Shown here one piece after another: positions 16,086-54,326 of a stretch of DNA of 64,000 bases. Source of the stretch: Chrysemys picta bellii (lineage: Eukaryota > Chordata > Testudines > Emydidae); the NCBI RefSeq assembly GCF_011386835.1, contig NC_088795.1, forward strand, positions 13,683,441-13,747,440, written 5' to 3'. Numbering within the stretch: position 1 is the stretch's first letter; every line of letters begins with the position of its first letter. The notes beneath the pieces are model-generated. The model made no database searches. It worked only from the letters and a program-made list of their open reading frames with translations, and was not told the origin of the DNA. A program made the position numbers and the translations under genes.

Positions 16086-16400
16086 GAAGGAATTCTCTGC
16101 CTGCCTCCTTGTAAGAGGAATAGGAGAAAGAGACACCCTGGGAGGTAATTTTGATTGTCTCATAGCCAATGTTAGGTCTAGAATCCACCAGTGGTGTGAT
16201 GCAAAGTAGCTGCACCCTACCCCCCCCCCCACATCTGGGCTAAATGGATTTCTTTATAGCAGTGCTAGCAGCTTTGCCCCTTTAGATGTGAGCTAAGTAT
16301 TATTACCACCATTGCTATTTACATAGGCCGTAGAGACCTTAGCAATCACTAGAACTGAGCAAATATTTCATAGTGATTTATTGGAGACTGTTACTGAAAG
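16086..16400 (+). pseudogene. PRM-H: exon-1 end remnant of a protamine-like copy
   Basis: Only the last part of an exon survives. The plus strand reads CKRNRRKRHPG, then a good donor (ctgggag|gtaatt, GT at 16145-16146). It aligns with PRM-F at 31.37-31.40 kb (CRWNRRRHNG followed by gtgatttt). The alignment continues for about 250 bp into non-coding sequence, including aagtattattaccaccattgctattt near 16297 against the same string near 31525. The start codon and leader are missing, and a MIR element abuts the left edge. No exon 2 was found in the following kilobase. It is a remnant with no expected product. The alternative, that it is the first exon of a long-intron gene, is unlikely. Confidence 0.4.
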
Positions 16401-16463
16401 GTGCTGTGATATAAGGCCCTTTTATTATTAAAATTAATTGCATTCTTTATTCATGAAAGTGCA

Positions 16464-16806
16464 TACAGTAGAACCTCAGGGTTACGAACAACAGAATTAC
16501 GAACTGACCAGTCAACCTCACACCTCATTTGGAACTGGAAGTACACCATCAGGCAGCAGCAGAGACCAAGGGAAAAAAAGCAAATATAGTACAGTACGGA
16601 GTTAAACGTAAACTACTTAAAAAAAAAAAAAAAAGGAAAGCAGCATTTTTCTTCTGCATAGTAAAGTTCAAAAGCTGTGTGAAGTCAATGTTCAATTGTA
16701 AACTTTTGAAAGAACCACCATAATGTTTTCTTCAGAGTCACGAACATTTCAGAGTTACGAACAGCCTCCATTCCAGATGAGTTCATAACTCTGAGGTTCT
16801 AGTGTA
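16464..16806. mobile_element. Tigger/mariner-type MITE with TA target site
   Basis: The left end CAGTAGAACCTCAGGGTTAC and right end ataactctgaggttctagtg are inverted repeats bordered by TA. Internal copies of the motif ttacgaac recur. The interior contains an A-run of 15 near 16619-16633 and no coding sequence. Confidence 0.75.
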
Positions 16807-17093
16807 GTTCTTTATGCTTCTTGCTTTCTGTCATTAATTATAGAGCCATTAAAGATATCACGATCTATGAAATCTGAAGGAAAGTGGACTACATCAAAAT
16901 CAGGGATTTCCCGTTTGTAGCAAGAATAATGGCTTTGCATTTTATTCTCAAACTAACTTTAAATTCACCCCAATTAAAACAAAACATCTTACTGCATCAT
17001 TACTGGAAAATCTTAAATAGTTCAAACAACTAGAAAATAATAAAATCTGTAAGAGGTGACACTCCACACCACAGAAGAGATGCGTTCTATGGG

Positions 17094-17099
17094 TTTATT
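17094..17099 (-). promoter_or_regulatory. poly(A) signal of PRM-B
   Basis: AATAAA on the minus strand, about 160 nt after the PRM-B stop codon. Its context gggtttattgacagg (plus strand) matches the signals of PRM-G (agtttattgacagg) and PRM-A (agtttattgaaagg). Confidence 0.75.
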
Positions 17100-17259
17100 G
17101 ACAGGTCTGGCATTCTCCTTTACTAGGAGGGCTCCTGGAACTTGCCAAGTCTTCCATCTGGTTATCTGGTTCTTGGTGTCTTGTGTGATGGAACTGCTTG
17201 TTTTCACAGTGAAGATGGCGATGATGATCAATGGGAATGAGAAAAGGAATTGCAGGAGG

Positions 17260-18614
17260 TTATCTACTTCTTTTCCAGTAGTAGTACGTGGCACAGACAC
17301 GTATGTACCCTGTTAAGAAAATACAAGGAAGAAATGTAACCATTTGTGAATCATTGGTAAATAGTGTGTGGGAAGTTAAAGCACATGGATATCAAACTAT
17401 TCAATCTTCCTTCAGACAGGTAAATCAACCCTCCCAAATCACACATTTGCTGATGGCTTCTTCTGAAATTATTTGATATACCAAAATAATTCATATTAAG
17501 AGGCTAAAAGACAATATTATGGAGGTGCTAGTTTCAACTCTATTGTTAAGGCTGAGTTCTATTTTGCACTTAAAGTAGGGATTCAACATCTCTTTTGCAT
17601 GGAAAAAGTAAATCTCTCAAGTAGTTTGTGTACAATTAATTAAGGTATTTAAAGAAATGTAGCATCTGTGTCTGTCTTAATGGAATAACATATATAGGTC
17701 AAACTTTGCCTATAATCAAAATTCACTGAACTCTTATGCATAGGCTTTATTTGAAGAAATTAGAGTGTAATGAAGCTTACTTATTGGTCCTTCTATTTAA
17801 TTTTCATGATTATAAAATGCCACTGAGAGGCTCAGGTTACTCTTAAGTAGAGCCATTGTGACATCAGAGGTAACTCAATCAATCATCCTTCCTGTACTGC
17901 TAACTTGCCATGAGGAGAAAAATATGGGGGAAGCGGAGCAACAAATATCTCTTTAAAAATCAGTTTAATCTAATCTGGGGTCACAAACTCTAAAATGCCC
18001 TAATCATAATCACATGTTTATTCACAACAGTAATGAGATATAGTCAGTACTGGGCAGATTTAAGGTAGTGTGGAAACTTCTTTTTTGGTGTAAATTTAAC
18101 TCTAAATTTCCTGGGTTTATAAGGCTTGGTTTGGGGATAATTACACTATCTCTCTTTTTTTTTTTTACCCTAAAAACCAATATTTAATGGTGAGAGGAAG
18201 TAAAAGGCCAGAGAGTCAATGGATGGTTCATCAGAACTGAGATTGAAGTCTCCAAAGTGCAGTGGCAATGCCACAGGACGACTTCATATGCAGTGCACCG
18301 AATGGAAACTGTTTCTTTTCATAAAGCTACTTTAGTTCTGTATATTGACGTTCCATATGTTGGGCTTGTTTATATCCAACAAACAATTGCTCCAATGATT
18401 TATAGGAGGGAGAGACCTCTTTTATTTGCAACTCTCGACCGCAATTCCATTTTAACATAGTTTTGTTTGAGAATAGTAATATGGGTTGGCCTTTACCTTT
18501 CTTCTTTCCAAGTGGTTCATTATAGAACTTCCTGTTCTTCCTGTTCCTTCTACTTGGAGGAACTTTCCTCTCTCTTCTGCCGCGAGTGCGGCGCTGTCTT
18601 CTGTATCTTGCCAT
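17260..18614 (-). CDS. PRM-B: protamine-like sperm nuclear basic protein, two exons
   Basis: A predicted spermatid DNA-packaging protein of 55 residues. Exon 1 (18497-18614) begins MARYRRQRRTRGRRERK, the start seen in bird and mammalian protamine 1 (MARYR), and continues with PPSRRNRKNRK. The donor is AAAG|GTAAAGG at 18496. Exon 2 (17260-17309) follows the acceptor ttcttaacag at 17311-17310 and adds Y-I-R-V-C-A-T-Y-Y-Y-W-K-R-S-R before TAA. The intron (1187 bp) is phase 1, as in PRM-A. Arg is 16 of 55 residues and Lys 7, so it is less Arg-rich than PRM-A, and the Tyr/Cys tail is unusual. The promoter, leader and poly(A) signal are recognisable paralogues of other copies. There is no stop or frameshift. 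Expression is unknown. A recently decaying copy with a chance open tail is the main alternative. Confidence 0.75.
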
Positions 18615-18743
18615 CCTCCAGTGAATTTAGTTGTTTAAAGATTGTTTAAAGAAGAAGAGAGAGAGCATTTCTTGGCTGAGCCAAGCCAGCCTGCCTGCTC
18701 TGATGGTACTTTTGAGCTTGTGAAGTGAAGTGAAGCCAGTATG

Positions 18744-18753
18744 TAAATTTAAA
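18744..18753 (-). promoter_or_regulatory. TATA-like box and promoter of PRM-B
   Basis: On the minus strand cagaccctttaaattt lies about 130 bp upstream of the start codon. The same word, cagaccctttaaat, occurs in the PRM-F promoter (31176-31188), and PRM-C has cagtcccttgaaat. A distal string GTCATTTTTCAGCAACAAA (about 18790-18808, minus) is shared with PRM-F at about 31103-31121. Confidence 0.6.
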
Positions 18754-18814
18754 GGGTCTGGTACTATGAACACACAAGAGGTCCCCTTTGTTGCTGAAAA
18801 ATGACCATATATGG

Positions 18815-20589
18815 TAATGAAACTGACATTTTATTAGTATTCCCTAATAACCCTAATTTACTGAATAGTAGGCAAACCCAGATTGGATGTGATCAGCGTT
18901 GCTTTCACCCTTATGCCCTTGTCTCTCTAAACTCCTTTTCTTCTGTAGTTCTGCCTTCTCCTCCTTATCCTCTTGCAGAACCATAATAATAAAAGGAACA
19001 ACCTTCACTAGAAAGCTTTTAAACTGAAGATCCCAGACTGCTGTCACTTCACAACCAATGTGGTGTAGCAACATTTTACAATAGTTGAGGACATGATATG
19101 TGAAATCCCCCATTTGTTCTAGAAAATAATCTAAAATTATGGACATATGGCAAATGACAGAAGATTCTTTATTATCCAAAATAGACATCTAAGGAATTGC
19201 ACAGTATGAAAACCTTAACATGTTGTGTCTTTCTCAAGTGCTCACATATATAATGGATGAAAGTGCTAAGCATTTTACAACGTCAGCCTTATCACAACAC
19301 TTACAGAATTAAGAGAGATCCTGTCCCTGATCCAATTATTCCATCAATGTAATCCAAAATACTTAGATAAGTGCTAAATAAATAAACAATCAAATATGAA
19401 AAATGAAACATCTTAAAAATGTAATGAATCATAGACTTATCTGAGTAGACTTTACACCTGATTGAGCTGAGGAGAGCAGAAGGAAAGGCTAAGCTACCTT
19501 TTCACTTTTCTCCTGATCCTAGGCCAATCAGGGAGCTGTTATGGCCCCTGGCAAAATCGGTATCCCAGGGAACGCTGCAACATCCAAGTATCAGTACTTT
19601 GCCCCATCTCTGCCTCTCACCCCCTCCCTTCACCTGCCCTTCGGACACAGAGCCAGGGGCATGTGACATAAAGCTAGTTATGCCAGCTCGACACCATCTG
19701 AACACTCCTTTCTGCGAGAGAAAATCCTCGGCTGCCTACTCTGAGTCGTTGGAGCCAGGGCCAAGAATCTGGCCTGGCATGTGTTTGTTTTGTTGTACAC
19801 TGTCATCACTGATGTTTGGCTCCCTCTTGCCCTAGGTATCAAGTTCAAAATTCTTGCTGTAGCTTCTGCCCAACCTATATCTCTGACTTTGTCTCTCATC
19901 TCATTCCTCCTGTGTGATCCATGCAGGGTGACCACTGAACATGTGCAGAACAAAATGCAGAAGTGAGGTCTAACAGTTTGCCATGGGCCCCTTGGCCAAA
20001 TTCTGTTACTGCTATTTTTCAAATGTAGTCACTGTTGTTGTTGTTCACTATAGAGCTTATGAGTTGAACCTTCTCTTGAATAAACTAAAGAAATGGAACC
20101 TGTTAAATCTCTCACTATAAGGCATGGTATTCTAACCCCAAATCATTCCTGTTGCTCTTTTGTGAACCCTTTCCAATGTGTGGACATCCATTTGGACATG
20201 TCATTAAATTGGATTTGGCTTTGCCTTTTTGCAACCGGATCATCTGGTAATAATGGGTGATAGGATGCAAGCTTGGGATCAGAATATGTATTCGTGACAT
20301 TGTGTTACTCACAGCACTTTGCTTTGCCACGTCAGGTAATAATTGAATTTCCAAATTAAAAATGTAAAATGTAGGAAGCACTTGAACTATACGTTTTTGA
20401 AAACCTGTGGTAAAGTTGAAGTCTTGATTCCTTGCCCCATCTTGAGATGCTTCTTAAAGTGCGATCTAACCCTTAATCATGTATCTCATGACTGCCACCT
20501 AATAGATTGTCATTCTTATTGACTGTCTGATTAACTAAAATTGTCTTTCCTGTATGTGGTCACTTTAAAATGACATAGGATGATACAAG
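18815..20589. other. intergenic, old CR1-like scraps
   Basis: No gene recognised. Sequence near 20100-20400 (cattcctgttgctcttttgtgaaccctttcc) resembles diverged CR1 3' sequence in reverse orientation. ORFs of 60-114 codons have no motif. Confidence 0.4.
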
Positions 20590-21371
20590 TGTAAGGGGGC
20601 CCCGTACTGAAACTTAGTGGGGGGCTTGGTTGGCCCTCTTCCAATACCAAAAGACAGGGGAAGAGCCGAAGACAAATCACGATCCTGAGACTGACAGTAC
20701 GCAGGGCCAATGGGGAGAGGACAATGCTCTAGGTCAGGCTGATTGACAGGGCAGGTAGGTCACTGAGGGAGTCAGGGCTGAGCTACAGTAGGGAGCTGCG
20801 GGGTCAGAGCCAGGATAGCGGACACCGGCTGTGCCACAAGTAACAGTACAGCCGGGCGCAGTGAATGTTGGGGAGAATGAGGTGAGGACCCTGGGCAGAA
20901 AGGACTCATTGCAGGAAGACATCGCAAGACAAGAGAGCCTGGGAAGCTTTTTTAAAGTCACAGAGACTGCTGTTTGTGGTCTTCCCCGTGCCCAGGGTGG
21001 GAGTTCTTGTTTCCTTCAACCTTTTCCATTTTTTCCTTTATTTTTCTTACAGTCTCTGTTTAATCAATTGTATTTGGTTCGAACTTAACGTAGTGATCAG
21101 GGGGTCAGGGAAGTGGCCGGTGTGCAGAGAGCACCCCGGGGTGGGGACGCCCTAGTCCCTGTCCTAATTGACCACAACGAGACTGGGGGTGAAGTCTCCC
21201 AGGAATCCTGGGCCCAGCCTTGTCAGAGTTACAAGGACTCTGCCACACAGGAGCGTGGAAGAGGAGTCCTTAAGGTGAGGCAGGCATCCAGCTAATGGGA
21301 GTTGGAGCGAGTCCGCTCTTTCACTATCCAATTCCACCGGGGTAGTGCAGAAGCCAGGAAACTTCCCCACA
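20590..21371. mobile_element. probable solo LTR upstream of PRM-C
   Basis: The element starts TGTAAGGGGG and ends CTTCCCCACA, giving TG...CA inverted termini over 782 bp. Its GC-rich sequence matches my recollection of a turtle ERV LTR. No convincing target duplication was read (acaag versus actgt). Its right end lies only about 60 bp upstream of the PRM-C TATA-like box. No internal viral genes are present. Confidence 0.55.
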
Positions 21372-21430
21372 ACTGTGGAATCATTCCACTGCTTACACAA
21401 GCACTGTATGTATTCATAGGTGCCAGTCCC

Positions 21431-21437
21431 TTGAAAT
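21431..21437 (+). promoter_or_regulatory. TATA-like box of PRM-C
   Basis: The plus strand reads gtgccagtcccttgaaatga, aligning with gtgccagaccctttaaatca of PRM-F. The box is TTGAAAT instead of TTTAAAT and lies 123 bp upstream of the PRM-C start. The leader downstream (gcatcaggaaaggcagg) also aligns with ccatcagagcaggcagg of PRM-B. Confidence 0.5.
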
Positions 21438-21559
21438 GAGAACCAGCTGAAATTCACCTCAGAGACTCAGAAATTGCATCAGGAAAGGCAGGTTTGGTCT
21501 GGCTGAACCTAAAACGCATTCTCCTTTGTCTGGAATTTTACCACAACAACTGCCTTGAA

Positions 21560-21673
21560 ATGGTAGGATGCCCCTGTAGGGCTCCTCTTGCCAGTAGGAG
21601 GAAGAGGAGGAGATGGCGGCAGTGTGGGAGAAGAAGGAAGAGACCTAGGTTAGCAAGGAAGAAAAAGAAGTAA
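21560..21673 (+). CDS. PRM-C: cysteine-containing protamine-like ORF, 37 aa
   Basis: The plus-strand ORF starts MVGCPCRAPLASRRKRRRW and ends RPRLARKKKK before TAA. It has 13 Arg, 6 Lys and 3 Cys in 37 residues, so half is basic, which fits a nuclear basic protein. The start is aligned to the PRM-B start codon by the conserved leader (acaacaactgccttgaa against aaacaactaaattcactggagg). The region where PRM-B has its intron donor AAAGGTAAAG here reads AAAGAAGTAAAG, which places a stop (TAA) over the former donor. The product could therefore be made without splicing; an AATAAA follows 127 nt after the stop. A splice at AA|GTAAAG remains possible, but no good exon 2 was found. The reading frame is intact. 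Whether it is expressed is unknown. Confidence 0.6.
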   Translation: MVGCPCRAPLASRRKRRRWRQCGRRRKRPRLARKKKK

Positions 21674-21799
21674 AGAGAATCTGACTGAATGTATTTAATT
21701 TGTTTAATCTAGCTATGGATGTTGGGGGAGAGATGTATTGGATAATTTTGCAGTAAGATCTCACTAAACCCAGCAAATTAGCTTGGCAATTTCTTGGCT

Positions 21800-21805
21800 A
21801 ATAAA
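21800..21805 (+). promoter_or_regulatory. poly(A) signal downstream of PRM-C
   Basis: AATAAA in ggctaataaaatagc, 127 nt after the PRM-C stop. The spacing is similar to that of the other copies (137-180 nt). Confidence 0.45.
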
Positions 21806-22663
21806 ATAGCTTCTATCTAATTTGTTTAATTTCCCACGTGCTCTACTGATTTTAATTAGAATTTTAAACTTTTGAATTGTAAGCAAGTGAACTTCCAAAA
21901 CACTTTTTTACTTATTCATTCTTTCTTCCCTCTGCCTAGCAACCATTGCTCACAGTTGCTCCAGCAAAAACAGATAACCTCCCGTTCTCATGCCTCGGGA
22001 CTTCTGAAAAGTCACTGAATTAACACCATCGAGGCAATGGAGTATCTTTTCAAGATTCGGGAACCCTTCTACCAAAGGAGCAATGGTCAAACCCGTCATT
22101 AAACCTGAAACTGCATTGCTTTTTTCTGACTGGCCTAGTTATTTTCAGCACATTCAGAACCTATTGTTTTAAAAAAGAAGACCAGAATAAATAGGAAAGC
22201 TTAGGATAAGTTTGGGCTAAGGGCAGGTAGCAGCAAGATGACTCACCCGTCCGGCTACCCCGGGTAGCATCACAGTGGACTTGTAGAATCCCATTGTTGT
22301 TTATTGATGGTTTTCCAGCACATTCAGTAGTATCTATTTATTCTCAAGCCAAGTTTTACTAACAATTTTGTAGCTGCACCAATTATGACAAATGCATAAT
22401 CGTATCGTCCTTAGACTAATCTTAACCCTGGAAAACTAGATCATCTTAATAAGGAAACTCAGAGAGAAAGTTTGCAGACAAAAGCAAAAGTCACAGCAAG
22501 AATTGCAGTGAACTGATTTATTGGTCATCAGCTTCTATTGAAGGGAAAGAGCGGTTTCTCTTGAATTTTGACAAGTTGTCCAGGTTTTACATCTGTTTTG
22601 TTCTGTGATGGGGTGGCAACTCATTCATACACTGGAAGAGCGGATGTTACTGACCACGTCAGA

Positions 22664-22997
22664 TCACACTAGTGTAATGGTAATGGGGTCTGCCTGGGAA
22701 GAAAAGTGAGAAAGGGACAAATACAGTCCAACCAGAAGAAACTTGGGCAGAATCCCTGCTCAGGTTCGTTGGGACAAATTGCTCTTGTTCATCACATGAA
22801 ACACACACACCTTTCTCTTCACCCTTTCCCCCCCTGCTAATTTTAAATAACTTCAGACAATAACGTGAAATACCAAAGTAATGAGTATTTACCTTTCTCC
22901 TGAGTCTCCTTCTCATGGGTCTCCTCCTGCAAGGCCTTGCTCTCCTTCCAGACCTCCTTCACCTGCGTGTGCTGAGATAGCATATGTATCTGACCAT
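22664..22997 (-). pseudogene. PRM-D: protamine-like copy with premature stop
   Basis: Minus-strand exon 1 (22893-22997) starts MVRYICYLSTRR, then hits TGA (22959-22961). In the same frame it continues RRSGRRARPCRRRPMRRRLR up to a donor aaag|gtaaat (GT at 22892). The Arg-rich continuation and MxRY start identify it as a protamine copy. An acceptor cttttcttcccag lies at 22694-22695. A short exon 2 would read either ADPITITLV (phase 0) or RPHYHYTSVI (phase 1, the phase of PRM-A and PRM-B). The intron would be 199 bp, close to the 181 bp of PRM-A. A poly(A) signal AATAAA lies at 22517-22522 (minus), and TTTAAA lies near 23088-23093. The single stop could come from CGA to TGA. The possible phase shift points to further decay. 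Confidence 0.6.
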
Positions 22998-24569
22998 TGT
23001 CTCTCTTCCAGTTCTCAGCCTCAAGTAGAGCCTGTTACAGTGGTGATGTTTTACTGCCTGAGCTAGTGAAAATAAGCACAACTGGTCTTTAAATGGAGAG
23101 ATGGACAGGACATACTCCCGAGGATTATCCTCTCTGCTTTGCATCATAATTATGTATTTGAATTAGCTTCTTCCATATATGGAAAGACCATAGCTCGAAA
23201 TTAACCTTAACAATGACCTGAATGAATTAACCTATCCCAGTGTCCTCCCTTTTTAAAAGTGGCCTCTAAAGCTGAGCATCTCAAGGGCACTGATTTTAAT
23301 TGGAAATGGAAGTGCTCTGCAAATCAGGCCGTAAGAGTCTCGACTTGGACACGTCAAAATTGAGGCACCCAAACTTAGCGGCCACTTCTGAACCTTCGCC
23401 TTTGACCATTTTAATTACACAGTAGATCTATAATATGGAACAAGCTCCTCCAATAGCAGAGGCTAAATTGTGGATCCAGCTTTGGGTACGGGTACCTGAG
23501 AAATGGGATATGGACTTATGACCTGAAACCCAGAGGTAATTATTTGTATAATGGTTAGTAAAGATTTTTATCGTCACATGAAGTACAATTACTGTGTTTA
23601 TTACTAATGTATTACTAGAAGTCACTCTGCACTCAACAATTTCAAAAAATATGGGAAGATGTGGACCCTCGTCCCAAGAACTTACAATTAATGAAATCCA
23701 AGTTAGCTGCAGTTGGAACAGTATTTAAATTAGCTTTCAACATGCAATGTCTCTTTCTGGAAACTTGAATTTGGGGTTTTCAGAGGCTCTTTTACACTTC
23801 CTGGCTTTCAGACCAGCCCAGGATCATAAGGGTGTAGGAACAGCCCAGTATATTAGTCAGCTCCTAGCCCTGTAATTCTTCTTCCTTTTTGCGCCAACTC
23901 CCACTGGCAGCCTTGATCTTAAGCATATAATCACCAAGTCAGGGAAACCCTGCCCTGAGTGTGATCAACTTACTTAGGTGCCGGAGATGTTGCAGAACTT
24001 AATTATTCCTATGCATTTTTCTGTATGGCTATAAAGCCAGAAAGGAAATAACTGTAAAGTAGATGAAGGTGGCAAGTAGCCGAGAAACTTCTGGGAAAAC
24101 AGATAGCTGGGGAAGTGAGGAGATGTGTAAGGCCAGGTGATGCGTAGCTGACTTCATTCTGATGTCACAATCTTATTGTATTAGTCTGTCTCCTTTGGCT
24201 TCCCATGCCAATTATTAACCGGAAATTCCTTGCCTTTAAAACAGTTTCCATTTATTAAATTTGTGCCTTCTTCAGGAAGCATCCAGCTGTGAAACAATGG
24301 AGACTTCATTCTGTACATTACTCTTGGGTAGAAGGCTTAATTTTGAAAATGCTTAGATGATTTTATTTAAATCATGGGTCTATTCTGTATTTGCAACTTT
24401 AACAGAACTTATTCAGTGCCTGTAAGTTTTTGCATATAGAAAGTGACCAAGTGATTCATCATAGTTTGTAAGGATCTGATTTTTTTTTTAGCTTTTGAAA
24501 CTTTATTTTGGAAATTCAAAACCGCCTGGGTGTGGGCCAAAAAAATAAGGAAGAGCATCTTCTTTAGTC

Positions 24570-24800
24570 TATGCTGTCATCTTCTCCCTCCTTTCTACCT
24601 TCCTGCAGTACTTATCTCCTGCACTGCTTCCTGCTCCAGCTGCATCTCCAGCTTGGCTTCCAAGTTCTCACCAGTTGGAGCACTGCCACCATTCATCTCT
24701 GGGTAGAGATAGGAAACCTGTCTTTGGTGGGATTTCCTGGGCTTGTGAGATGAAGTAGCAGCTCTGGCATTTATCTAAAAAGACTGATAAGTGTGGCAGG
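24570..24800 (-). pseudogene. PRM-E: decayed protamine-like copy, leader conserved
   Basis: The minus-strand promoter and leader (about 24650-24800) align closely with PRM-A: plus-strand aacctgtctttggtgggattt and gggcttgtgagatgaag correspond to aacctgtctttgctggtatgt and gagcttgtgagctgaac at 33503-33545. The coding region has lost the MARY start. Around 24605-24655 one frame reads WRCSWSRKQCRR and then stops, while the ATG frame gives an acidic MQLEQEAVQE peptide. A donor-like aag|gtagaa is at 24598. No exon 2 with Arg was found in the next 400 bp, and AATAAA occurs at about 24505. It is most likely a pseudogene; only the 5' homology is solid. Confidence 0.5.
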
Positions 24801-26555
24801 CAATGCAATGTCACACACTAGTGATGAGCAGTAATGGGTTTTTAGTGCTGTCCATATGGGATCAAAACCTCTGTCCATATGCCCATCAAATACCACTTTT
24901 AATAGACGTGTACATTGGTTTATTAAGTTTGTGAAGTGCTTTTGGACATAGAGGTCTAAATGGTGCCATAAAATAGCATTGAAATTATTAATGGAACTTG
25001 AAACAATATGATGTAATTGTAAGGCCTCTTTGGGGATTGCAGAGAAAAGAGAATTACCCCACCTTGTAGTTCTCTAAGACTAAATGATCATGCTCCGAGC
25101 TTCTTTCATGTAGTGGAGTCACTTGCATTCCCTCTCTACTTTGGTATCAACCCTGTGTTATCTTTTCCCCTGTGCTCCTACTAATCTTGGGAATGCACTT
25201 TTCTATAGTGGTGCCATGAAGTGGTCCAGCAGAGGGATGAGTGCTATCCACAGAATGTCCAGTGTTACTCCTCGTATCATCTAAATGATCCCATATGTCA
25301 CCCCTCACTGTAGTATGTGAGCATCTGAACTTTCTGAACATGGTCCATGGACAACACCAATTGTCATCTTAAGAAAACAATCTGATTCCAGGCAGAGCCA
25401 AAGATTAAATTTATTGATTGCATCACAATGCGTTGATTTACTGTGACATCATATAATGAATGTTCCATGGATTCTCACAGGAATGGTTTGGGTTGTCCAC
25501 TTCAACGTTTGCTATTGGTAAGTCTCAGAAGGCTGATTTCCCTTCATAGAACTAGCCTCAAAGAAGAGCCCCTTTCATTTTCAGCCCATCCTGAGAACTG
25601 AACCGGAAATTTAGGCTAGGGTGTGTTTAAAAATGCCAAATCCAATGAAACCACAGGGGGGATTTTATGGCAGAACATATTAGAACAGCAGGAGTAATAT
25701 TTCTAACTCTTCTGAAGTGCCCTTGGATTCTTGATGATCAGAAGTGTTCAGGATCTCTGTTCATGTACTACATCACTTATATAAAAGCACTTCGAATATT
25801 GCACATTTTCCCCAAATGCCATACAGGGATAATCGTATGAGCCTTTACTCTGTGTCACCAACACATTTCCTACAGCATATTGTTATTTATTGCTGGTAAA
25901 CAGTCTTCTGCAATAGGAACATAAGTATTGTCATGCCTGATAAGTCGAGTATCCTGTCTTTGGCAGTGGCCATTATCAGATGCTTTAGAGGAAGAGGCAA
26001 GAAATGCTCTAAAATAGGCATTTGATACTTGAAATCAATGGGAGCTTTCCTGTTTTCAGTGGAAGCAGGACCAGGACCTTGTGGTGTGACCTGCCCAATG
26101 TTAAACTTTTTTCCTAGCCTTCCCAGTCACAGGTTAGCTTTTGTCTTGAAGCATGAAGGCTTATATCCTTTCTAATTGTGACAATGTTGGAAATCTTCTT
26201 CATTAACTTCTGAATTCCAGTTTGATTTTATGAACTCTATGCGTGTTTTATGACCATATGGTTGTCTTGTACTGCAATATTGCATCCTACCTCTTGTATG
26301 AAGGAGAAGGGGAACATCATCTGGATGTCTGTCCTGAATGAGTCTGTTTAAGGATCATCAACAATGGAATAGCCTGCCCTAGCAGAACAATGGGGTAACT
26401 GTAACTTAGGCAACCAGTAACCAGTTTTCTCCAGCTTGTTTGCAAGGAGTGGGAGTTGGAGCAGTGGAATTTCCTCAGCCGGACAAGAGAACATACAGAG
26501 GTGTTAGAACTGGGCTTTAAAAACTGAGAGGTTCAGGGGACAACAAAATAGGAGC
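24801..26555. other. intergenic, nothing recognised
   Basis: Non-coding sequence. No protamine-like exon, repeat boundary or RNA gene was recognised. Confidence 0.4.
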
Positions 26556-26639
26556 TTTTGGCAGGAGTGAGAGGAAACTCCATGGTCTGGAAAAGAAACC
26601 TGAGAGGGAGAAGGGTGGTCCAGAAGAGGGGACCTTGGG
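26556..26639 (+). repeat. direct duplicate, copy 1
   Basis: About 85 bp (gagaggaaactccatgg... to ...gaccttgggc) repeated nearly exactly at 27238-27325. The two copies flank an hAT MITE and a second palindromic element. Confidence 0.75.
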
Positions 26640-26647
26640 CGCTGGAA

Positions 26648-26899
26648 CAGGGCTGGCTCCAGGGTTTTGGCCACCCCAAGCAGCCAAAACAAAACAAAAG
26701 AAAACAAAAAACCCGCGATCGCGATCTAAAAGAAGCCGCGATCGCGATCTGCGGCGGCAATTCGGCGGGAGGTCCTTCACTCCCAGGCAGAGTGAGGGAC
26801 CGTCAGCCGAATTGCCGCCGAATACCTGGACCTGCCGCCCCTCTCCGGAGCGGCCGCCCCAAGCACCTGCTTGAGAAGCTGGTACCTGCAGCCGCCCTG
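26648..26899. mobile_element. hAT MITE with 8-bp target duplication CGCTGGAA
   Basis: The left end CAGGGCTGGCTCC and right end GGTACCTGCAGCCGCCCTG are diverged inverted repeats. CGCTGGAA duplicates at 26640-26647 and 26900-26907. The interior holds palindromic cgcgatcgcgatct and a self-complementary cggcaattcggc...gccgaattgccg stem. The long ORFs here (up to 136 codons) are artefacts of this GC-rich palindrome. Same family as 58911-59306. Confidence 0.8.
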
Positions 26900-26959
26900 C
26901 GCTGGAAGTATACTGACCAAACCCCAAGAAATGTTCAAGCCTCGTGAGGAAACTTAGCC

Positions 26960-27237
26960 TTTGTCTACACTTAAAAGTTAGGTCAACATAGCAATGCCAG
27001 TCATGGGTGTGAAAAAACCCACACCTATGCTGACCTAATCCCCAGTGTAGAGGCAGCTATGTTGGCAGAAGAATGCTTCCATTGATGTAGCTAACTTGGT
27101 TCTAGGTGGTGGTGTTCCTACACCAATGGAAAAACCCCTTTTGTTGGTGTAAGTGGCCTCTACACTGCAGCATTATGCTGGCATAGCTGCACCAACATAG
27201 CTATGCTGGTCCGGTCTCCGTAGCATAGAAACGGCCT
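26960..27237. mobile_element. palindromic 'gtctacac' MITE
   Basis: The left part ctttgtctacacttaaaagttaggtcaacatag and the right part caccaacatagctatgctggtcc...catagaaacggcc are inverted-type ends. Several internal inverted copies of ctacac/gtgtag occur. It is non-coding. Limits are approximate. Confidence 0.55.
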
Positions 27238-27325
27238 ATGGCAGGTCTGAGAGGAAACTCCATGGCCTGGGAAAGAAACCTGAGAGGGAGAAGGGCGGTC
27301 CAGAAGAGGGGACCTTGGGCGCATA
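27238..27325 (+). repeat. direct duplicate, copy 2
   Basis: Second copy of the unit at 26556-26639, differing at a few positions (tctgagagg versus agtgagagg; gggcggtcc versus gggtggtcc). Confidence 0.75.
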
Positions 27326-27769
27326 CATCTGTTTTATTTTCCATGGATCTGTATATCTCTTGCACTGTCTAAAAGTAAAGAGTGACCGGTTTAGAGCACC
27401 TTTTGCAAAGTCTGTGTGTTCTTCCTTCAACTATCATGTGTCTCTAGAGCGTTAAACTATAATCCAGAGTACCCATAAGACTGAAGCTCAGGAAGCGTGC
27501 ACTTAAACTACTGGGGAATCTTGGGGGGTTCAGCACTGCTCTTGGGGGGGCTAGTGCAGCTGGACTGCAGGGCCCCACCTCCAAAGAGGGGTGCCAATCT
27601 GAGAGTATTTGTTCAGGCACTGAGCTTAGAGGCCAAAGAAAGACAGTGCCTGGAAACTACCCAGACCAAGAAGAGCTTAGAAATGCATGAATCTAGTGCT
27701 TGGATCTACCCGCCTGGTGAATGTCTGACAAGGGGAGTTTGACCAGGTCTGTGACATCAATCTTTTAGT

Positions 27770-28490
27770 ACAAATGACCAATCCTTTTCTGAATCTTGGT
27801 AAGCTCTTGATGTCAATGATATCTCAGGGCAGAGAGTGCCACAAGCTTATTGTAGGGAGGGAAATTCATATGATAGTTTTAAATTTGCTCCCTTTCACTC
27901 TTATTGAATGTCCTTTTGCTCTTGTGTTATAAGCAGGTAAATGGAAGACCTGATATATTTTCTCAATTCAACCTATTTTTTATATATATTTTATCACATT
28001 CCCTTCTTGTCATTTGATAGCTGCAGACAGTCCCAAATGTTCAGTCTTTCAGAAGTCTCTCCACACACCTATAGTCATTTTCTTCCTGTCTCTGAACGCC
28101 TTCTATTTCTGATCAATCTTTTCTGAGGCATGGTAGGTGACCAGAACTAAACACAGTATTCCAGGTGAGCGAATGCCTTTTACTTAAATAATGACTTTAT
28201 ATGTCCAGCATTTTTTGTCTTTCCCTAGGAAGCCTAACATTTTGTTTACTTTTTTGACTGCAGCTGCATGTTGAGCAGAATTTTTCATTGAACTCATCAA
28301 ATGACACAAAGGTCTTTTTCATGAATTATTGTAGGTCAACCACTTTTCCAGATCATTAATACATATTAAAGAACACCAGCCAAGACACAGAACCTGGTAG
28401 CAGCCCACTGTAAACCTTTCCCCATGACAAAAATTGATGACTTATCCCTAAATTATATTCTGTCTTTCAGCCAGTTTCTGATTCATTGAA
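27770..28490 (-). mobile_element. old CR1/L3-type LINE fragment
   Basis: Diverged LINE-like sequence read on the minus strand; words such as ccagaactaaacacagtattccaggtgag and cattaatacatattaaagaacaccag are typical of reverse-oriented CR1 elements. No intact frame. The assignment is from recognition only. Confidence 0.5.
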
Positions 28491-28499
28491 CCAGGTATA

Positions 28500-29795
28500 A
28501 CATGATGAATCACAGAGAAGGCTGAAGTTTTTAATGCCTTTTTTTAACTTTAGTCTTCACTAAAAAAGTTAATTGTGACCAGATGCTTAACACAATATTC
28601 ACAGCAAGGGAGAAGGCCTGAAGATGGACAGAACAGATTAAAGACTACTTTGGCCATGTCTACATGTACAGCACTGCAGTGGCACGGCTGTACCAATACA
28701 GCTGCACTGCTACAGCATGTCTGGTGAAGACGCTCTGCGCCGATGGGCGAGAGCTCTCCCGTGGGCATAAAAAAAAAAAAGCCTCCTCAAGGGGCAGAAG
28801 CTATGTTGGGGGAGAAGTTCTCCTGCTGACATAGCACTGTGCACACAAGCACTTTTGTTGATGTTAACTTATGTTGCTCAGGGGGATGGAATATTCACAC
28901 CCCCGAGTGACATAAGTTTTGCCAACATAGGCTGTAGTGTAGACATAGCCGTAGATAAGTTAGATGTATTCAAGTCAGCATGGCCTGATGAAATTCACTC
29001 TAGAGTACTTAAGGACCTAGTTGAAGCAATCTCTGAATAATTAGCAATTCTCTTCGAGAACTCCTGTGGGATGGGTGAGATCCCAGAGGCCTGGAGGTAT
29101 TACGTTTGCCCATCTTCAAAAAAGGGAGGGGGAGAGGCTAACTGGTCTGTAATTCCTACTTTGATCCCAGAAAGATACTTAAGCAAATTATTTAACAATT
29201 AATTTGTTCAGACCTGGAGGTTAATACTAATGTAAGTAAAAAACAACCAAGAACAGATTGGTTTGGCATGATTTAATTTCCTTCCTTTGGCCCAGTTGAT
29301 GGGAGAGCAATAGATATGATATCTCTACTTTAGTAAGGCTTTTTTTGATGCGGTCCAACATGGCATTCTGATAAGCAAACTTGGGAAATATGGCTCTAAA
29401 TGAAATTACTGTAAGGTGGGTGCACAACTGGTTGAAAGACCAGCCTAAAGAAGAGAAGGCTGAATGTGTGTGGGGGTCATAACAGTCATTAAATATGTGA
29501 AGGGCTGTTATAAAGAGGGGGGTGATTAATTGTTCATTGTGTCCACTGAAGGTAAGACAAGAAGCAATCAGCTTATCTTGCAGCAAGGGAGATTTGGGTT
29601 AGAATATTAGGAAAAACTTTTTCATTATAAGTATAGTTAAACTACTGGAACAAGTTACTTAAGGAGGTTATGGGAAAGGTTTTAAAGAACAGGTTAGACA
29701 AACACCCTCAGGGATGGTGTAGGTTTACTTGGTCCTGCTTCCATGGTGGTGAAATCCCTTCCAGCCCTGTATGTCTATGATTCTATAATGGTATT
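28500..29795 (+). pseudogene. CR1 LINE reverse transcriptase, broken, with nested MITE
   Basis: The plus strand carries CR1-like peptides: an early piece KAEVFNAFF near 28520, then LDKLDVFKSAWPDEIHSRVL near 28955-29010, then stops and frameshifts. The 3' part (near 29465-29790) has the usual CR1 tail wording (catggtggtgaaatcccttccagccctgtatgtctatgattctata). The reading is interrupted by the element at 28650-28955. It cannot make protein. Confidence 0.75.
28650..28955. mobile_element. MITE inserted into CR1 frame
   Basis: The inverted ends are ggccatgtctacatgtacagc and gctgtagtgtagacatagcc. Removing it joins ...gactactt to agataag..., restoring a CR1-like KDYLDKLD reading, which shows that it inserted into the LINE. 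It contains an A-run of 12 near 28769-28780. No autonomous gene. Confidence 0.7.
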
Positions 29796-29958
29796 TTGCC
29801 TCTCACACCTCATGACCACACTTTTCAGCCTCTGTTCCAACACCAGCTTCATCATTCAGTGTTACAAGTTCAAAGCGTATTTCAAACTACACTATCCGAT
29901 AAGTTTAATATTTACATGACACAATACAATAGATAGTTACAGAGATGATATTTCAAAG

Positions 29959-29964
29959 TTTATT
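29959..29964 (-). promoter_or_regulatory. poly(A) signal of PRM-G
   Basis: AATAAA on the minus strand in the context agtttattgacagg, the same as PRM-B and nearly the same as PRM-A. It lies 179 nt after the PRM-G exon 2 stop. Confidence 0.65.
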
Positions 29965-31181
29965 GACAGGTGCAATTGTTGCAAGCTCTGGGAAACTTGG
30001 AAAAGCCATTATGTTGTGTTTTGTTGGGGGTGGCGGCTGTTTGGTTTCTCACTGGCTGTTCAGTCTTCTTGGAGCAGAAATCATAGGTTTGAATGCTGAC
30101 TACAAATTTAAGACCTTTTGAGAACAGGAAGATATCTGAATTTTAAACTCTTCTCCTCTGAGATCGACCTTTATTATTTATAGATAAAAGAAAAGCATAA
30201 CCCTCTATGAATTTGTGTTAAGGAACTGCAGACTCATCTATTTTGTCCAATTTGTGTTAGAAATAAAATGGATTAGCTAGAAGTCCTATGTGGTTCTATT
30301 TAAGCTCTTATCCCTTACCCATCGTGCCATCTAAGAAACAAATAGAATGTCAAAGAGGGTAGTGACCTTGCAGATCAGTTCACAAAAGGTGTTCGCACTG
30401 GAAGGGTAGTGGGGAAGGAAAGGACAGAGATTGTTGTGGGAGAAGTGATGGTGGTTGAGGCTGGTATCACTGGTCGATCGGAGGGCTTTGGGACTGTGGT
30501 ACTATAAGACAGCCAAGAATAGATAATTAGGGAGGAAGAGCAGAGCTGTGAATGGCCTTGAAGGTAGGGACAAGACGCTTAATTTTTTAGTAGAAAAAAA
30601 ACAGGAGCCAAAAGGAGAGTGTTCTCTATATTTGTCTCTCCATGAGTAAGTAGCGTTAATGGGCTTATTCTGAGCAATTACATTCGTTCCCATTTTAGTT
30701 AAGAAAGGAACTTCCCTGTACATAGTGAGCCTGTCCTCTCTGTGTGCTGCAATGCTTTCCTGCAATAAACCTGTCATAGTTTCAACTGATAAAGTATCGT
30801 TTGATTCCTGTCCTAAACTGTTCAGTGGTGTTGCTGTACAGTTATATACTTCACCCTGCAGTGCGAATGCTCCTTATTGATCGTTATTTGATTAGCTGGC
30901 TGCAACAGAAGAACAAAGCATGGGCAACTGAGACAAGAAAGCAGCATGGAAGAAGGGGAGCAGAAAGGAATGAGAAGCTAAGAGTGAGAGAGGCTCGGAT
31001 TAGGCCCATCCTAGGTGTGGTTGCTACCTAGTCAGTTAGTATACAAAAAAATGTGGGTTATTAGGGATCCCTAATAAAATTTCAGTTTCATAACCACCTA
31101 CAGTCATTTTTCAGCAACAAAAGGGACCCTTGTAACAGCCATTAGGTGTGTACCCTGTATTATATTCCTAGTGCCAGACCC

Positions 31182-31188
31182 TTTAAAT
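31182..31188 (+). promoter_or_regulatory. TATA-like box of PRM-F
   Basis: TTTAAAT within gtgccagaccctttaaatca, 126 bp upstream of the PRM-F ATG. The block from about 31103 to 31255 aligns with the PRM-B promoter and leader, including the distal GTCATTTTTCAGCAACAAA string and accatcagag. Confidence 0.55.
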
Positions 31189-31313
31189 CAAGAGACCATC
31201 TGCAGCACATTTCACAAGTGAAGCAGTACCATCAGAGTAGAAAAGTTGGCTTTAGTTCAGCCATGAGATCATGTCTCCTGTGGATTTTTGAAACAACTGA
31301 AACTCACGGGAAC

Positions 31314-31451
31314 ATGACCAGAGGCACAAGCTGCCACGGCTGTGGAGGCAGACAGAGAACTCATCTTTGTAGATGGAATAGGAGGAGGCACAATGGGGTG
31401 ATTTTGACTGTCTCGTGGTCAACTTTGCATTACACAGTTGGTGGATTCTAG
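31314..31451 (+). pseudogene. PRM-F: protamine-like exon 1 on the plus strand, inside PRM-G
   Basis: The ATG at 31314 begins MTRGTSCHGCGGRQRTHLCR and continues WNRRRHNG. It aligns codon for codon with PRM-B exon 1 (MARYRRQRRT...SRRNRKNRK) through a conserved leader (gaaacaactgaaactcacgggaac). It has four Cys in the first 19 residues, more like mammalian Cys-rich protamines than PRM-A. The frame runs on through VILTVSWSTLHYTVGGF to TAG at 31451. Alternatively a weak donor ggg|gtgatt at 31398 matches the donor position of PRM-H. No Arg-rich exon 2 or nearby AATAAA was found. It is nested, in opposite orientation, in the intron of PRM-G. It may still be translatable, but I treat it as a remnant. 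Confidence 0.45.
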
Positions 31452-31959
31452 ATGTAAAGGGGCCAGACAGGTTTATTCACAGCAGCACTAACACTTATAT
31501 AAGCACTCCCTTATATAAGGGCTAAGTATTACTACCACCATTGCTATTTGCATAGGCTATAGAGGCCTTAGCAATCACTGGAGCTAGGCAAATCATTCCT
31601 GGTGATTAACTGCTGATATTTTGACAGACAGGAATCTATATTACACACCAAAAGAATTAATATTTAATGGGTAAAAAAATACACATGGCTTGATTTTGAG
31701 CTTGCTTCATTTTCAGTGCTTTCAGTGCAGCACTTGCTGTTTCTCCTATTACTTCTGGTAGGAGGAATGCCCTGTCTGTCCCGCCACAACAGCATCTGAA
31801 TCTTGTGGGATTCGTTGTTTCAAGATCCCAGAAGAAGAGAACATTACCTCGCGGCTGATGTATTTTTATCGGGTTCATCCTGATTTGTCTTCTCTGTAAA
31901 TTAAACCGCCCCAAACTTTTCTGAATGAAGAGAGATAAGATTGGGATGAGGCTGTTTAA

Positions 31960-32345
31960 TTAACAGAGAAGACAAATAAGTGAAAGAAAATTATGAATTA
32001 GAAGACAGACTGAGAACTTCTATCTAGTTTTTATCCTAACACAAAGTGAAAGTGACATTCAATGAATTTAAAAGGCAATGTACTTAAAATTCTAAAAAGC
32101 AAATGCTTTACACATACAAGAACATTGGTAAAATTTTCCAAAGCACCCAAATGACTTAGGATCCTACATCCCATTTTCAAATGTGACTTAGGTATTTGGG
32201 AACCTAAGTTTCACTGAAAGAAATGGGACGAAGGAGCCAAAGGGTCAGATTTTTAGAGGGATTTAGGTGCCTAAAGGTATGCTAAAGTCAAGTCACTTTT
32301 AAAATGGGAACTTCCTAACACTTAGGTGCACTTGAAAATTTTACC
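31960..32345. other. intergenic, nothing recognised
   Basis: AT-rich sequence with MIR/L2-like scraps (tcccattttcaaatgtgacttagg near 32170). No gene. Confidence 0.4.
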
Positions 32346-32349
32346 CCCC

Positions 32350-32830
32350 ATCTTTTCCAACCCTCCCCCCACCCAATTTTGTTTCTAGTCATTATTCACA
32401 CAGGTCTCTGTACCTGCCTTCTGTTCCTAGTTCATAATTGTTGAGATAGGTTGACTATAGCTGAACGCAGTATTTCAGGAGAGGGCATTTCATTGATTTA
32501 CAAAGGCATTATGTTTTCCAGCTCATCCGTTAGCCTCCTTAAAAATTTTTGCTACTTGTGAACACTGCAGCACATGCCACTGGAGCTCTTCAGTCTCCTC
32601 CATTCTTGACTAACCCCAAAAAGTGTTATCTGCAAATTTTCCCACTCTTCTCTCATCTTTTCCAGATCAACATATTAAACACTATTCCTGCCATGATGAA
32701 AATTAGCCATTAATTCCTAGTTTGAGTTTTTCGTCTCTTAGCCCATGTCTTCATCAATGAAAGTAGGCCTTTTCCCCCATGACTATTCCCTTTGACCCCT
32801 GTATTTCAAAACCTGTCCCTAAAACAATGA
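32350..32830 (-). mobile_element. old CR1-like LINE fragment
   Basis: Reverse-oriented CR1-like wording (gttatctgcaaattttcccac...ccagatcaacatattaaacac). No intact frame. It lies just downstream of the PRM-A poly(A) site. Confidence 0.45.
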
Positions 32831-32868
32831 TCCAATAACTGGATAACACAGAAATGAAGTTTCACAAG

Positions 32869-32874
32869 TTTATT
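32869..32874 (-). promoter_or_regulatory. poly(A) signal of PRM-A
   Basis: AATAAA on the minus strand (context ttcaataaacttgtg), 171 nt after the PRM-A stop codon. Confidence 0.8.
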
Positions 32875-33045
32875 GAAAGGTGGCAGGCTGTAGCAGGCTG
32901 CTTGCATCTTGGGAGGTCATTGCTAGGGTTTTGATGGAAGGATTTTTTTTATTTTTTTTATGCCATTTTGATGAGCAGAAGTTGAAGACAATGGTTGATG
33001 ACTTTCAAATTTATGAGTACAGGAGAACAGGCAGTCATCTGGAGT

Positions 33046-33436
33046 TTAATAGCTCATCCTCCTCCTTCTCCTTCTCCTCCTCCCTCTCCTGCTGCTCCTC
33101 CTACTGCTTCTCCTCCTCGATCGAGCTCTGCGACCTAGAGATAAGTATAACTGGCTGTTACTTCCTGTGTCCAGTTCTTGTTAAAGAGATGCAATATCAT
33201 TTTTTTTCTGATTTGTCTTAGAAATAAATTATATATTACAATAATGTCGTGAATTTATGAATATATAAATGAAATATATTTATACAGGAGACATTTTTAT
33301 TATTAACGCCTTTACCTCTCCTCCTTCTACCATATCTCTTCCTTCTACTCCTTCTATATCCCCCTCCACGACCTCCCCTGGGTCGCCTCCAACGACAATT
33401 CCTGCTTTTGCTCCTGCTGCGTTTGTATCTTGCCAT
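33046..33436 (-). CDS. PRM-A: protamine 1-like gene, two exons, 69 aa
   Basis: A sperm nuclear basic protein that would replace histones and condense DNA in late spermatids. Exon 1 (33316-33436) starts MARYKRSRSKSRNCRWRRPR, then a Gly/Arg stretch GGRGGGYRR and RKRYGRRRR. The donor is AGAG|GTAAAGG at 33315. Exon 2 (33046-33134) follows ttatctctag and encodes RRARSRRRSSRRSSRRG, then eight Arg and MSY before TAA. The intron is 181 bp, phase 1 (G|GT). Arg is 36 of 69 residues, with one Cys (position 14). The Ser-Arg pairs in the N-terminus and centre are typical phosphorylation sites in this family. The MARYxRSRxxSR start and Tyr end recall bird protamine (galline). The start ATG is the only one fitting the family. 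A TATA-like tctttattt lies about 125 bp upstream and AATAAA 171 nt downstream. No damage was seen. Confidence 0.9.
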
Positions 33437-33560
33437 TGCTTGTTACGGTTTTGGCTTGCAAGCTCTTGGCGGCTGGAGCAGCACCTCTGATTTGCGGCAA
33501 CCAACCTGTCTTTGCTGGTATGTTTCTGAGCTTGTGAGCTGAACTGACAGCACTGGCTGC

Positions 33561-33568
33561 AAATAAAG
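33561..33568 (-). promoter_or_regulatory. TATA-like box of PRM-A
   Basis: On the minus strand cctctttatttgcagccag lies about 125 bp upstream of the PRM-A ATG, at the position of TTTAAA in PRM-B and PRM-F. A half CRE-like atgtcacacatag lies just upstream. The leader aligns with PRM-E. Confidence 0.5.
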
Positions 33569-33619
33569 AGGCTGCTATGTGTGACATAGGATAGCATCAT
33601 GTGTTCACCTGTGATGAGG

Positions 33620-34339
33620 TACAGTGGGGTTTGCCTTATATGGCTATTAATTTTACTGTATGTCACAATGTCTATAAAAGGTAAAAACTAAAGGCTTTGA
33701 TAACTATGCCAAGTGAAATGATGACAGGATGTTAGCACAGAAGTTTTATAGTTTTGAACCAGGGTGTTAAGTTTCTAAATGTGTATATAAGAAGTATATG
33801 TTTTGTACAGCACAATGGGGCCCTCACATTTGGTTGGGGTTTCTGGGTGCTGCTGAAATACGCATAAAAATAGATCAGTGTGGGATTCAGGTCAAATAAA
33901 CTATATTGGGGATTTGCTTATCTTCTAAAAATGTGTGGAGGGAATAGAAGATGATATGCAAGAATGCCTTCCTTTTTTTTTTTTTTTTACCTTATACACA
34001 GGCTGTTTTGAGTTTCACAACATACTCCAAGACCAAATAAATTGTTACAAACTATGCTGAATATTTTGTTCATTTTTATATAGTCCTCTTCTGTGTACCA
34101 CAGCTAACAGTAAGGGAAGGAAATGCTGGCTGAGCCCAGATATGTTCTGCCTTACCAGACAACCTGCCCAGATTGGGGGCAGACAGATTCGGAGGCATTT
34201 AACATTCTAAGCAGTGCTCTTCTGTTCTTCTGCTTGTTTGTTCCTATGGCAAAAATTCTAACATTCATGCATGAGTTTGGAAAGCACTTTGTGCTGTGTA
34301 CATTAAGAGCAAAGTATTAGATGATTGTAATTTATTTGT
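33620..34339. other. intergenic upstream of PRM-A
   Basis: No gene. A string gtacagcacaatggggccctc near 33806 is part of a widespread reptile interspersed repeat, and a T-run of 18 sits near 33973-33990. Confidence 0.45.
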
Positions 34340-47445: not shown

Positions 47446-47449
47446 GGCA

Positions 47450-53330: not shown

Positions 53331-53714
53331 TCGTGCTCTCTTATTTGTCAGTGTTGGATTTTTGCAAAGGGACACATTTCTGTTTAGCCAAAGTGAACAG
53401 AGATGCCTCGTACTTGTGTGAACAGTGCAGATAACTTCTATGTTTGTGGTGAAGTGACTTTTGCATCACAAAAGCGCAGTATAACCACTATGGTTAAGAA
53501 AGCCTATCACCTTTATTTTGGCTGCAAAATTGGAGATCAGGACAAGAGGTGGGCCCCACACATATGCTGCAACACTTGTGCAACAAATCTTCGCCAGTGG
53601 TTGAACAGGAAAAGGAAATCTATGCCTTTTGCAGTTCCAATGATTTGGAGAGAGCCAACAGATCATACCAGCAATTGTTACTTCTGCATGGTGCCTCCAG
53701 TTGGGAAAGGTGTG

Positions 53715-54275: not shown

Positions 54276-54326
<51 letters not shown>

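Follow-up and report, generated by a model that had tools for sequence, protein, structure and literature searches.

The window analyzed here, a stretch of 64,000 nucleotides from Chrysemys picta bellii (C5:13683441-13747440 of a 2.37-Gb genome), contains a protamine-type gene family that is mostly broken: full two-exon frames with splice sites are present only in PRM-A and PRM-B. We consider it probable that this is a protamine locus of duplicated and decayed copies, in which two full two-exon genes survive and PRM-A likely encodes a working protamine. An initial annotation of the window had described protamine-like genes and pseudogenes on both strands, and this description holds, with units A, B, C, F, H, and X on the minus strand and D, E, and G on the plus strand (the letters C to H and X may differ from the lettering of that annotation). 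Its count of at least eight related units is borne out for six of the nine recognized here: homology outside the arginine-rich parts is well supported for A, B, E, F, G, and X, moderate for H, and weak for C and D. Of the three frames it listed as intact, those of PRM-A (33046-33436) and PRM-B (17260-18614) are indeed so, whereas the one at 21560-21673, in PRM-G, is not cleanly intact.

PRM-A and its intronless relatives

PRM-A lies on the minus strand, with a promoter and 5' leader at 33437-33690. Exon 1 (33316-33436) is an open frame that starts MARYKRSRSKSRNC, ends in RRRR in phase 1, and runs into a GTAAAG donor; a 181-nucleotide intron (33135-33315, GTAAAG...CTCTAG) separates it from exon 2 (33046-33134), which closes with RRRRRRRRMSY and a stop codon. 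The 3' untranslated region (UTR) follows at 32844-33045, with AATAAA at 32874-32869. Joining 33436-33316 to 33134-33046 yields a predicted product of 69 amino acids, MARYKRSRSKSRNCRWRRPRGGRGGGYRRSRRKRYGRRRRGRRARSRRRSSRRSSRRGRRRRRRRRMSY, in which 36 of the 69 residues are Arg (52%) and a single one is Cys. The protein begins MARYKRSRSKSR, so that both a MARY start and RS repeats are present, and in our reading PRM-A is clearly protamine-like. Searching PDB with PRM-A returned no matches.

The closest relatives of PRM-A form an array of at least six intronless copies on the same contig, 10.6 Mb away. A genome-wide DNA search with PRM-A found 13 places, among which the protamine units are the self match and six places at C5:24,313,160-24,338,965 (plus strand; 72-74% identity, E 2e-27 to 2e-36); the remaining six matches span 40-51 bases at one end of the query, with five falling on other contigs and one elsewhere on C5. 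The leader and exon 1 of PRM-A match all six copies (C5:24.31-24.34 Mb) at 69-72% identity over about 370-400 columns, and exon 2 and the 3'UTR match as well, while the intron is absent from the array copies. When array copy L002 is compared with PRM-A, the BLAST pieces stop at 33314 and resume at 33117, not far from the exon ends predicted at 33316 and 33134. The array frames start MARYRRSRSRSRS or MARYRRNRSRSRS and read MARYRRSRSRSRSRRRRRRRGGRGG...RRRRRRRRRMSF or ...RRSS. Five of the six (L002 to L006) are open from end to end, at 58-61 amino acids, and L007 has a stop at codon 19. The tail RRRRRRRRRMSF, found in L002, L004, and L005, mirrors that of PRM-A, and L002 carries 38 Arg in 60 amino acids.

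Three clear promoter-only pieces also lie in the array region, near 24,321,459, 24,329,130, and 24,334,862, together with one weak piece near 24,317,103 (E 0.021). At the end of the array, frames at C5:24340302-24340892 (plus strand) and C5:24343066-24344193 (minus strand) look by eye like those of a DNA transposon (DNA-binding and DDE-type), which could have helped to spread or move the array. The array 3'UTR (GAACAATGCCACCTGCCAATAAACTTTGAAA in L007) may resemble an element at the 3' end of mammalian PRM1; a search with a stretch of that mammalian 3' end returned nothing relevant.

The spliced PRM-A frame is under purifying selection relative to the array. In a protein-guided codon alignment with L002 over 60 codons, nonsynonymous divergence (dN) is 0.165 and synonymous divergence (dS) 1.045, giving a dN/dS of about 0.16. 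The corresponding ratio of uncorrected proportions, pN/pS, is 0.26 (bootstrap range 0.15-0.44), a value as low as which arose in none of 1000 stop-free neutral simulations, and it reached 0.5 or more in 0.6% of 2000 bootstraps. Comparisons with the five open array copies (Biopython NG86; L007 was excluded owing to its stop) give dN of 0.17-0.25 and dS of 1.0-1.2.

PRM-B, the C11 gene, and two subfamilies

PRM-B, also on the minus strand, has a promoter and leader at 18615-18870 with a TTTAAA box and no good cAMP-response element (CRE). Exon 1 (18497-18614) is an open frame from MARYRRQRRTRGRR to LGKKK that ends in phase 1 at a GTAAAG donor, the intron (17310-18496, GTAAAG...TTAACAG) is 1187 nucleotides long, and exon 2 (17260-17309) encodes GYIRVCATYYYWKRSR before the stop. 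The 3'UTR (17094-17259, AATAAA at 17099-17094) matches that of array copy L003 with a z score of 8.0, reached by 0 of 300 shuffles; this and the other pairwise unit scores were judged against 300 dinucleotide shuffles each. Joining 18614-18497 to 17309-17260 gives a predicted product of 55 amino acids, MARYRRQRRTRGRRERKVPPSRRNRKNRKFYNEPLGKKKGYIRVCATYYYWKRSR, in which the MARY start is kept and the RS repeats are not. A search of the protein collection with PRM-B returned no candidate.

The PRM-B leader matches unit E and a gene on another contig, C11. A genome search with the leader and exon 1 of PRM-B found three places: PRM-B itself, unit E, and C11:4,348,935-4,349,049. The C11 gene, which reads MARCPGQHRRRPRRRRRSIRRRRRSRGRCSCRNPPMKRRRGYVRVMTTYYYRR, is an intact B-type protamine-like gene on the minus strand, with exon 1 at C11:4348781-4348901, exon 2 at C11:4348455-4348495, and a 285-nucleotide phase-1 intron (GTAAAC...GACAG). 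Its tail GYVRVMTTYYYRR matches the B-type tail GYIRVCATYYYWKRSR: the two Tyr-rich second exons are homologous, with an alignment score of 38 where the best of 5000 single-base shuffles reached 25, and they keep the pattern GY[IV]RV..TYYY. CRE and TATA elements are marks of spermatid genes, and the C11 promoter has a perfect CRE (TGACGTCA) 153 bases upstream of the ATG; no other of the 13 upstream regions scanned has a perfect one. Neither AATAAA nor ATTAAA occurs within 400 bases past the C11 stop.

Three profile models were used to follow the family through noncoding sequence: a leader model whose rows are PRM-A and the six array copies, a 3'UTR model built from PRM-A and five of those copies, the sixth giving an empty row, and a third model made from the leaders of PRM-B and unit E. 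The searches spanned 264 kb, comprising 154 kb around the window and 110 kb around the array. The leader model found F (E 9.6e-29), B (1.4e-5, with PRM-B not among its rows), and G (1.1e-3); the 3'UTR model found X (1.3e-8), G (0.0078), and, at only 0.075, B; and the third model found G (1.5e-11), three array copies (2e-7 to 3e-6), A (2e-4), and F at only 0.3. In a search of the 3.1-kb C11 locus alone, the two leader models scored 5e-23 and 3e-12 and the 3'UTR model 0.02. A shared promoter and leader, as proposed in the initial annotation, is thus found, together with a shared 3'UTR.

These relationships resolve into two types joined by related promoters, leaders, and 3'UTRs: an A-type, comprising A, F, X, and the array, and a B-type, comprising B, E, G, probably H, and the C11 gene. 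A leader tree of 14 rows splits the A-type units (A, F, and the array) from the B-type units (G, B, and E) with support of 99/98, and a 12-row tree that includes the C11 gene, which falls on the B side, gives this split at 100/99; the tree program flags G as a long branch. The divergent tails that the annotation had pointed to exist because there are two subfamilies, with the A-type tail matching the array and the B-type tail matching the C11 gene. Its phase-1 intron is common to PRM-A and PRM-B, where it has a GTAAA donor as in the C11 gene, but not to PRM-G as this unit now stands (phase 2).

The composition of PRM-B (16 Arg, 7 Lys, 6 Tyr, and 2 acidic residues in 55) leaves room for a different interpretation of the B-type genes. 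With lower Arg, more Lys, and a Tyr-rich tail, PRM-B and the C11 gene could encode a separate small basic sperm protein, similar to a transition protein, rather than protamines, and the conservation of the exon 2 pattern between the two would agree with this. The C11 protein, however, is strongly Arg-rich with a protamine-like MAR start, and the A-type and B-type promoters are related. We therefore regard a separate identity for the B-type proteins as somewhat unlikely.

Probable relic units of the window

PRM-G, on the plus strand, retains a promoter and leader (21405-21559; z 16.6 against B, 0 of 300 shuffles), a 37-codon frame (21560-21673), and an apparent exon 2 with 3' end (21940-22119, ATTAAA at 22098; z 9.1 against the PRM-B 3' end, 0 of 300). 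Its frame starts at most three columns from the PRM-B start in the alignment, and by eye ATGGTAGGATGC resembles ATGGCAAGATAC. The stop codon TAA sits inside GTAAAG (donor at 21670), the donor hexamer of PRM-A and PRM-B. Splicing to the apparent exon 2 at 21940, an acceptor chosen by eye, is in phase 2 and leads into a nonbasic tail; read in phase 1, that exon instead comes to its stop at AGATAACCTCC, as in PRM-B, and AGATAACCTCC is common to the B stop region. Because the joined exons run off frame and the stop lies inside the donor, PRM-G is likely a relic rather than an intact gene.

Unit F (24502-24864, minus strand) is an A-type relic that has kept its leader and lost its start codon through deletion of the start region; it scores z 33.6 against the array, and its 3' part z 6.6 against A (0 of 300). 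Unit X (29941-30267, minus strand) is an A-type 3' relic comprising part of the intron, a broken exon 2 that reads GRSQRRRV and then stops, and the 3'UTR (z 12.8 against A). The PRM-A intron is partly shared with X, at 64.5% identity over 124 columns including the start of exon 2 (E 2e-5). X may be one of the units of the initial annotation. F and X were considered as two halves of one gene and rejected, since on the minus strand the 3' piece precedes the 5' piece.

Among the B-type units, E (31043-31386, plus strand) has kept promoter, leader, and ATG, at 65% identity to B over 354 columns (E 1.4e-31), and has no recognizable 3' end, no 3' match being found in the shuffle-scored comparison. 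Unit H (31685-31785, minus strand) is an exon 1 relic without a start codon, 69% identical to exon 1 of B (E 2.4e-8 without the low-complexity filter); against E it scores z 4.4, with 1 of 300 shuffles as high. Unit C (22893-22997, minus strand) has a MVRY start, an in-frame TGA at codon 13, and a GTAAAT donor, where AGGAGAAAG/GTAAAT resembles AGAAGAAAG/GTAAAG of PRM-B; its leader match is weak (z 3.5 with 2 of 300 shuffles as high against E, and 15 of 300 against B). Unit D (16106-16378, plus strand) consists of fragments that resemble unit E and the sequence 3' of it: 16106-16169 matches E at E 8e-5, an inverted piece at 16207-16172 at 5e-4, and 16279-16378 is 82% identical over 100 bases to 31508-31607, downstream of E. 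This last pair could belong to a duplicated unit or be a dispersed repeat. In the shuffle-scored comparison D matched neither leader nor 3'UTR, and even at E up to 10 none of the three profile models recovered C, D, or H. The initial annotation counted five damaged units; the damage seen here lies in F and H (start codon lost), C (stop at codon 13), X (exon 2 broken), and E (no recognizable 3' end). G also counts as a likely relic, and C and D are weak as members of the family.

The coding parts of these units are AGG/AGA repeats, and weak BLAST matches among C, H, and D mean little in such sequence. Stop-free 24-codon frames with at least nine Arg also occur off the units: for the 154-kb region these make up 4 of the 10 listed bins, and around the array (110 kb) 6 of 18 bins outside the array, with 3 more on its other strand. 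Arg-rich purine repeats could therefore be misread as genes by chance. The homology of A, B, E, F, G, and X, however, lies in leaders, intron, or 3'UTRs, which excludes chance Arg-richness for those six, so that as an account of the locus it has a negligible probability; it may still apply to D and in part to C and H.

Retrocopying was likewise considered as the origin of the units and rejected. In F, B, E, and all six array copies, homology reaches far beyond the TATA region on its upstream side; in G it extends about 20 bases past that region, and in X a portion of the intron survives. The shared promoter sequence of F, B, E, and the array and the intron piece of X argue instead for duplication at the DNA level.

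Protamine identity and history of the locus

A short protein of about 50-70 amino acids, at least half of them Arg, is encoded by PRM-A and by array copy L002; the Arg share of PRM-B (16 of 55) is below half. Selection keeps the frame of PRM-A relative to the array, and not that of PRM-B relative to the C11 gene. PRM-A is like mammalian PRM1 (PF00260) in the MARY or MAR start, the N-terminal SR repeats, the Arg clusters, and the short two-exon gene with one intron; it differs in having only one Cys, no Pfam match, and another chromosomal neighborhood. Galline, the bird protamine, is encoded by intronless, multi-copy genes. The array at C5:24.3 Mb is likewise intronless and multi-copy, and it is Arg-rich, with a MARYRRSRSRSRS start, whereas PRM-A and PRM-B differ from galline in carrying an intron. 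The protamines of reptiles were reportedly treated by Hunt et al. in 1996 (J Biol Chem 271:23547), and the proteins encoded here may already be known at the protein level from such work. Alligator protamines are cited in an excerpt of PMC12216123 as showing sequence microheterogeneity, which fits a multi-copy protamine family. In the open-access library searched, no description of a turtle protamine gene locus appeared in the titles and abstract openings of the matches listed.

Several observations weigh against a protamine locus with PRM-A as a working gene. Eight predicted or partial proteins matched no Pfam family at E up to 10; PF00260 is absent on C5, its only match in the genome reaching 20.2 bits (on C16), below the 21-bit cut-off; and among 1778 candidates returned from the protein collection with an array protamine, none was at E up to 0.001. 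The PF00260 miss may reflect a model presumably built mainly from mammalian sequences, together with the composition filters of HMMER. Nonetheless, without that match, the label "protamine" is based on composition, start motif, and selection. The upstream region of PRM-A has no good TATA box and no good CRE. The test of its splice junction is modest, in that array agreement over the 12 bases after the join is 8-9 for the spliced and 5-6 for the unspliced sequence. Unit F is not placed consistently, grouping with the array in one tree and with A in the other. PRM-B compared with the C11 gene over 52 codons gives a pN of 0.42 and a pS of 0.38, with the coding part 59% identical; as this is no purifying selection, PRM-B would be either drifting or changing fast, and it is a doubtful gene. 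Finally, in a simulation, 23 random changes to an array copy (half of those observed) left an open frame with the Arg plus Lys share of PRM-A in 11% of runs, and 46 changes (all those observed) did so in 0.4%. Hence, the evidence for PRM-A is the synonymous excess, and the open frame alone is not strong.

These same points could be read to mean that the window is a graveyard, in which the working genes are those of the intronless array and PRM-A and PRM-B are remnants not yet broken. Most units are damaged, the pN of PRM-B is close to its pS, PRM-A has no good TATA box, and the survival of an open frame after 23 changes would allow it. The comparison of PRM-A with the array, where dS exceeds 1 at a dN of 0.165 and high pN/pS values are rare among bootstraps, would however be hard to obtain had either line evolved for long without constraint, and we consider it unlikely that both genes are such remnants.

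If PRM-A is instead a working protamine, as we favor, it likely still packs DNA in sperm. It would be made in spermatids, with postmeiotic transcription and with translation in elongating spermatids as expected from its family, and its product would be expected to displace histones and, with its Arg clusters, to condense the DNA of sperm. A sequence from transcription to condensation is described for protamines in an excerpt of PMC8812575, which also reports protamine exons to be more variable than the intron. The array would supply the bulk protamine and PRM-A a variant, and G, E, F, X, H, C, and D would be relics of a birth-and-death protamine locus.

The array most likely lost the intron, because PRM-A, PRM-B, X, and the C11 gene carry it. 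The intron would then be ancestral and would have been lost in the array lineage with the upstream promoter retained; that the array arose in this way is probable by parsimony within one genome. A broader scenario, which we put forward tentatively and hold to be possible rather than probable, is that the window is the surviving ancestral-type locus, intron-bearing and with two ancient subfamilies; that the array came from the A-type by precise intron loss with the promoter kept, so that bird-type intronless genes would derive from mammal-like intron-bearing genes; and that the B-type is a second basic protein of sperm with a role comparable to that of PRM2 or TNP2. Protamine genes evolve fast, and protein comparisons alone are a poor guide to their history in mammals, birds, and reptiles. 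An intron, leader, and 3'UTR in one genome offer landmarks at the DNA level for testing a single origin of bird and mammal protamines and the timing of intron loss. Homology in leaders and 3'UTRs can, moreover, reveal tiny two-exon protamine genes that escape the Pfam protamine model.

The initial annotation had drawn a parallel with the mammalian PRM1-PRM2-PRM3-TNP2 cluster beside SOCS1/RMI2, to be checked by synteny. The window could in principle be a member of such a cluster in its ancestral position, given its clustered, short, Arg-rich two-exon genes and the MVRY start of unit C, which recalls PRM2. The mammalian cluster adjoins RMI2. In this genome, however, RMI2 is at C10:65.44 Mb and the window is on C5 (no search was made for SOCS1 itself). 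Within 40 kb to one side of RMI2, no leader or 3'UTR match surpassed E 0.09, and neither PRM-A nor PRM-B as a query gave any match on C10. The parallel in position thus fails, and a mammalian-type cluster is very unlikely here. We also rejected unit C as PRM2 from its MVRY start alone, as MVRY barely differs from MARY and unit C is broken. Two further features were seen in these searches: a continuous copy of RMI2 with a single internal stop at C2:15165904-15166266, which looks like a processed pseudogene, and, beside RMI2, a gene-like open frame of 170 codons rich in Asn, Ser, and Thr that runs leftwards from C10:65465256 (minus strand).

No neighbor useful for synteny was identified by a codon-usage scan of the 264 kb in its best 70 of 304 segments, which by eye are mostly GC-rich or transposon sequence; nor was a useful neighbor gene found in the flanks, 50 kb to the left and 40 kb to the right of the window, among the longest frames and those 70 segments. 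An Rfam scan of the window gave no matches at gathering scores. A stop-free segment of 170 codons (L017:8194-8703, minus strand), which may be a piece of RCE1 (CAAX protease 2) and probably a processed copy, lies about 1.3-1.8 kb to the left of the window start. Inside the window, an 84-base direct repeat (26559-26642 and 27239-27322, 94% identical, about 600 bases apart) may reflect an insertion whose flanks were duplicated, or else a local duplication. In the right half, frames at 47357-48191 and 53397-55849 look by eye like those of reverse transcriptase and transposase, from mobile elements.

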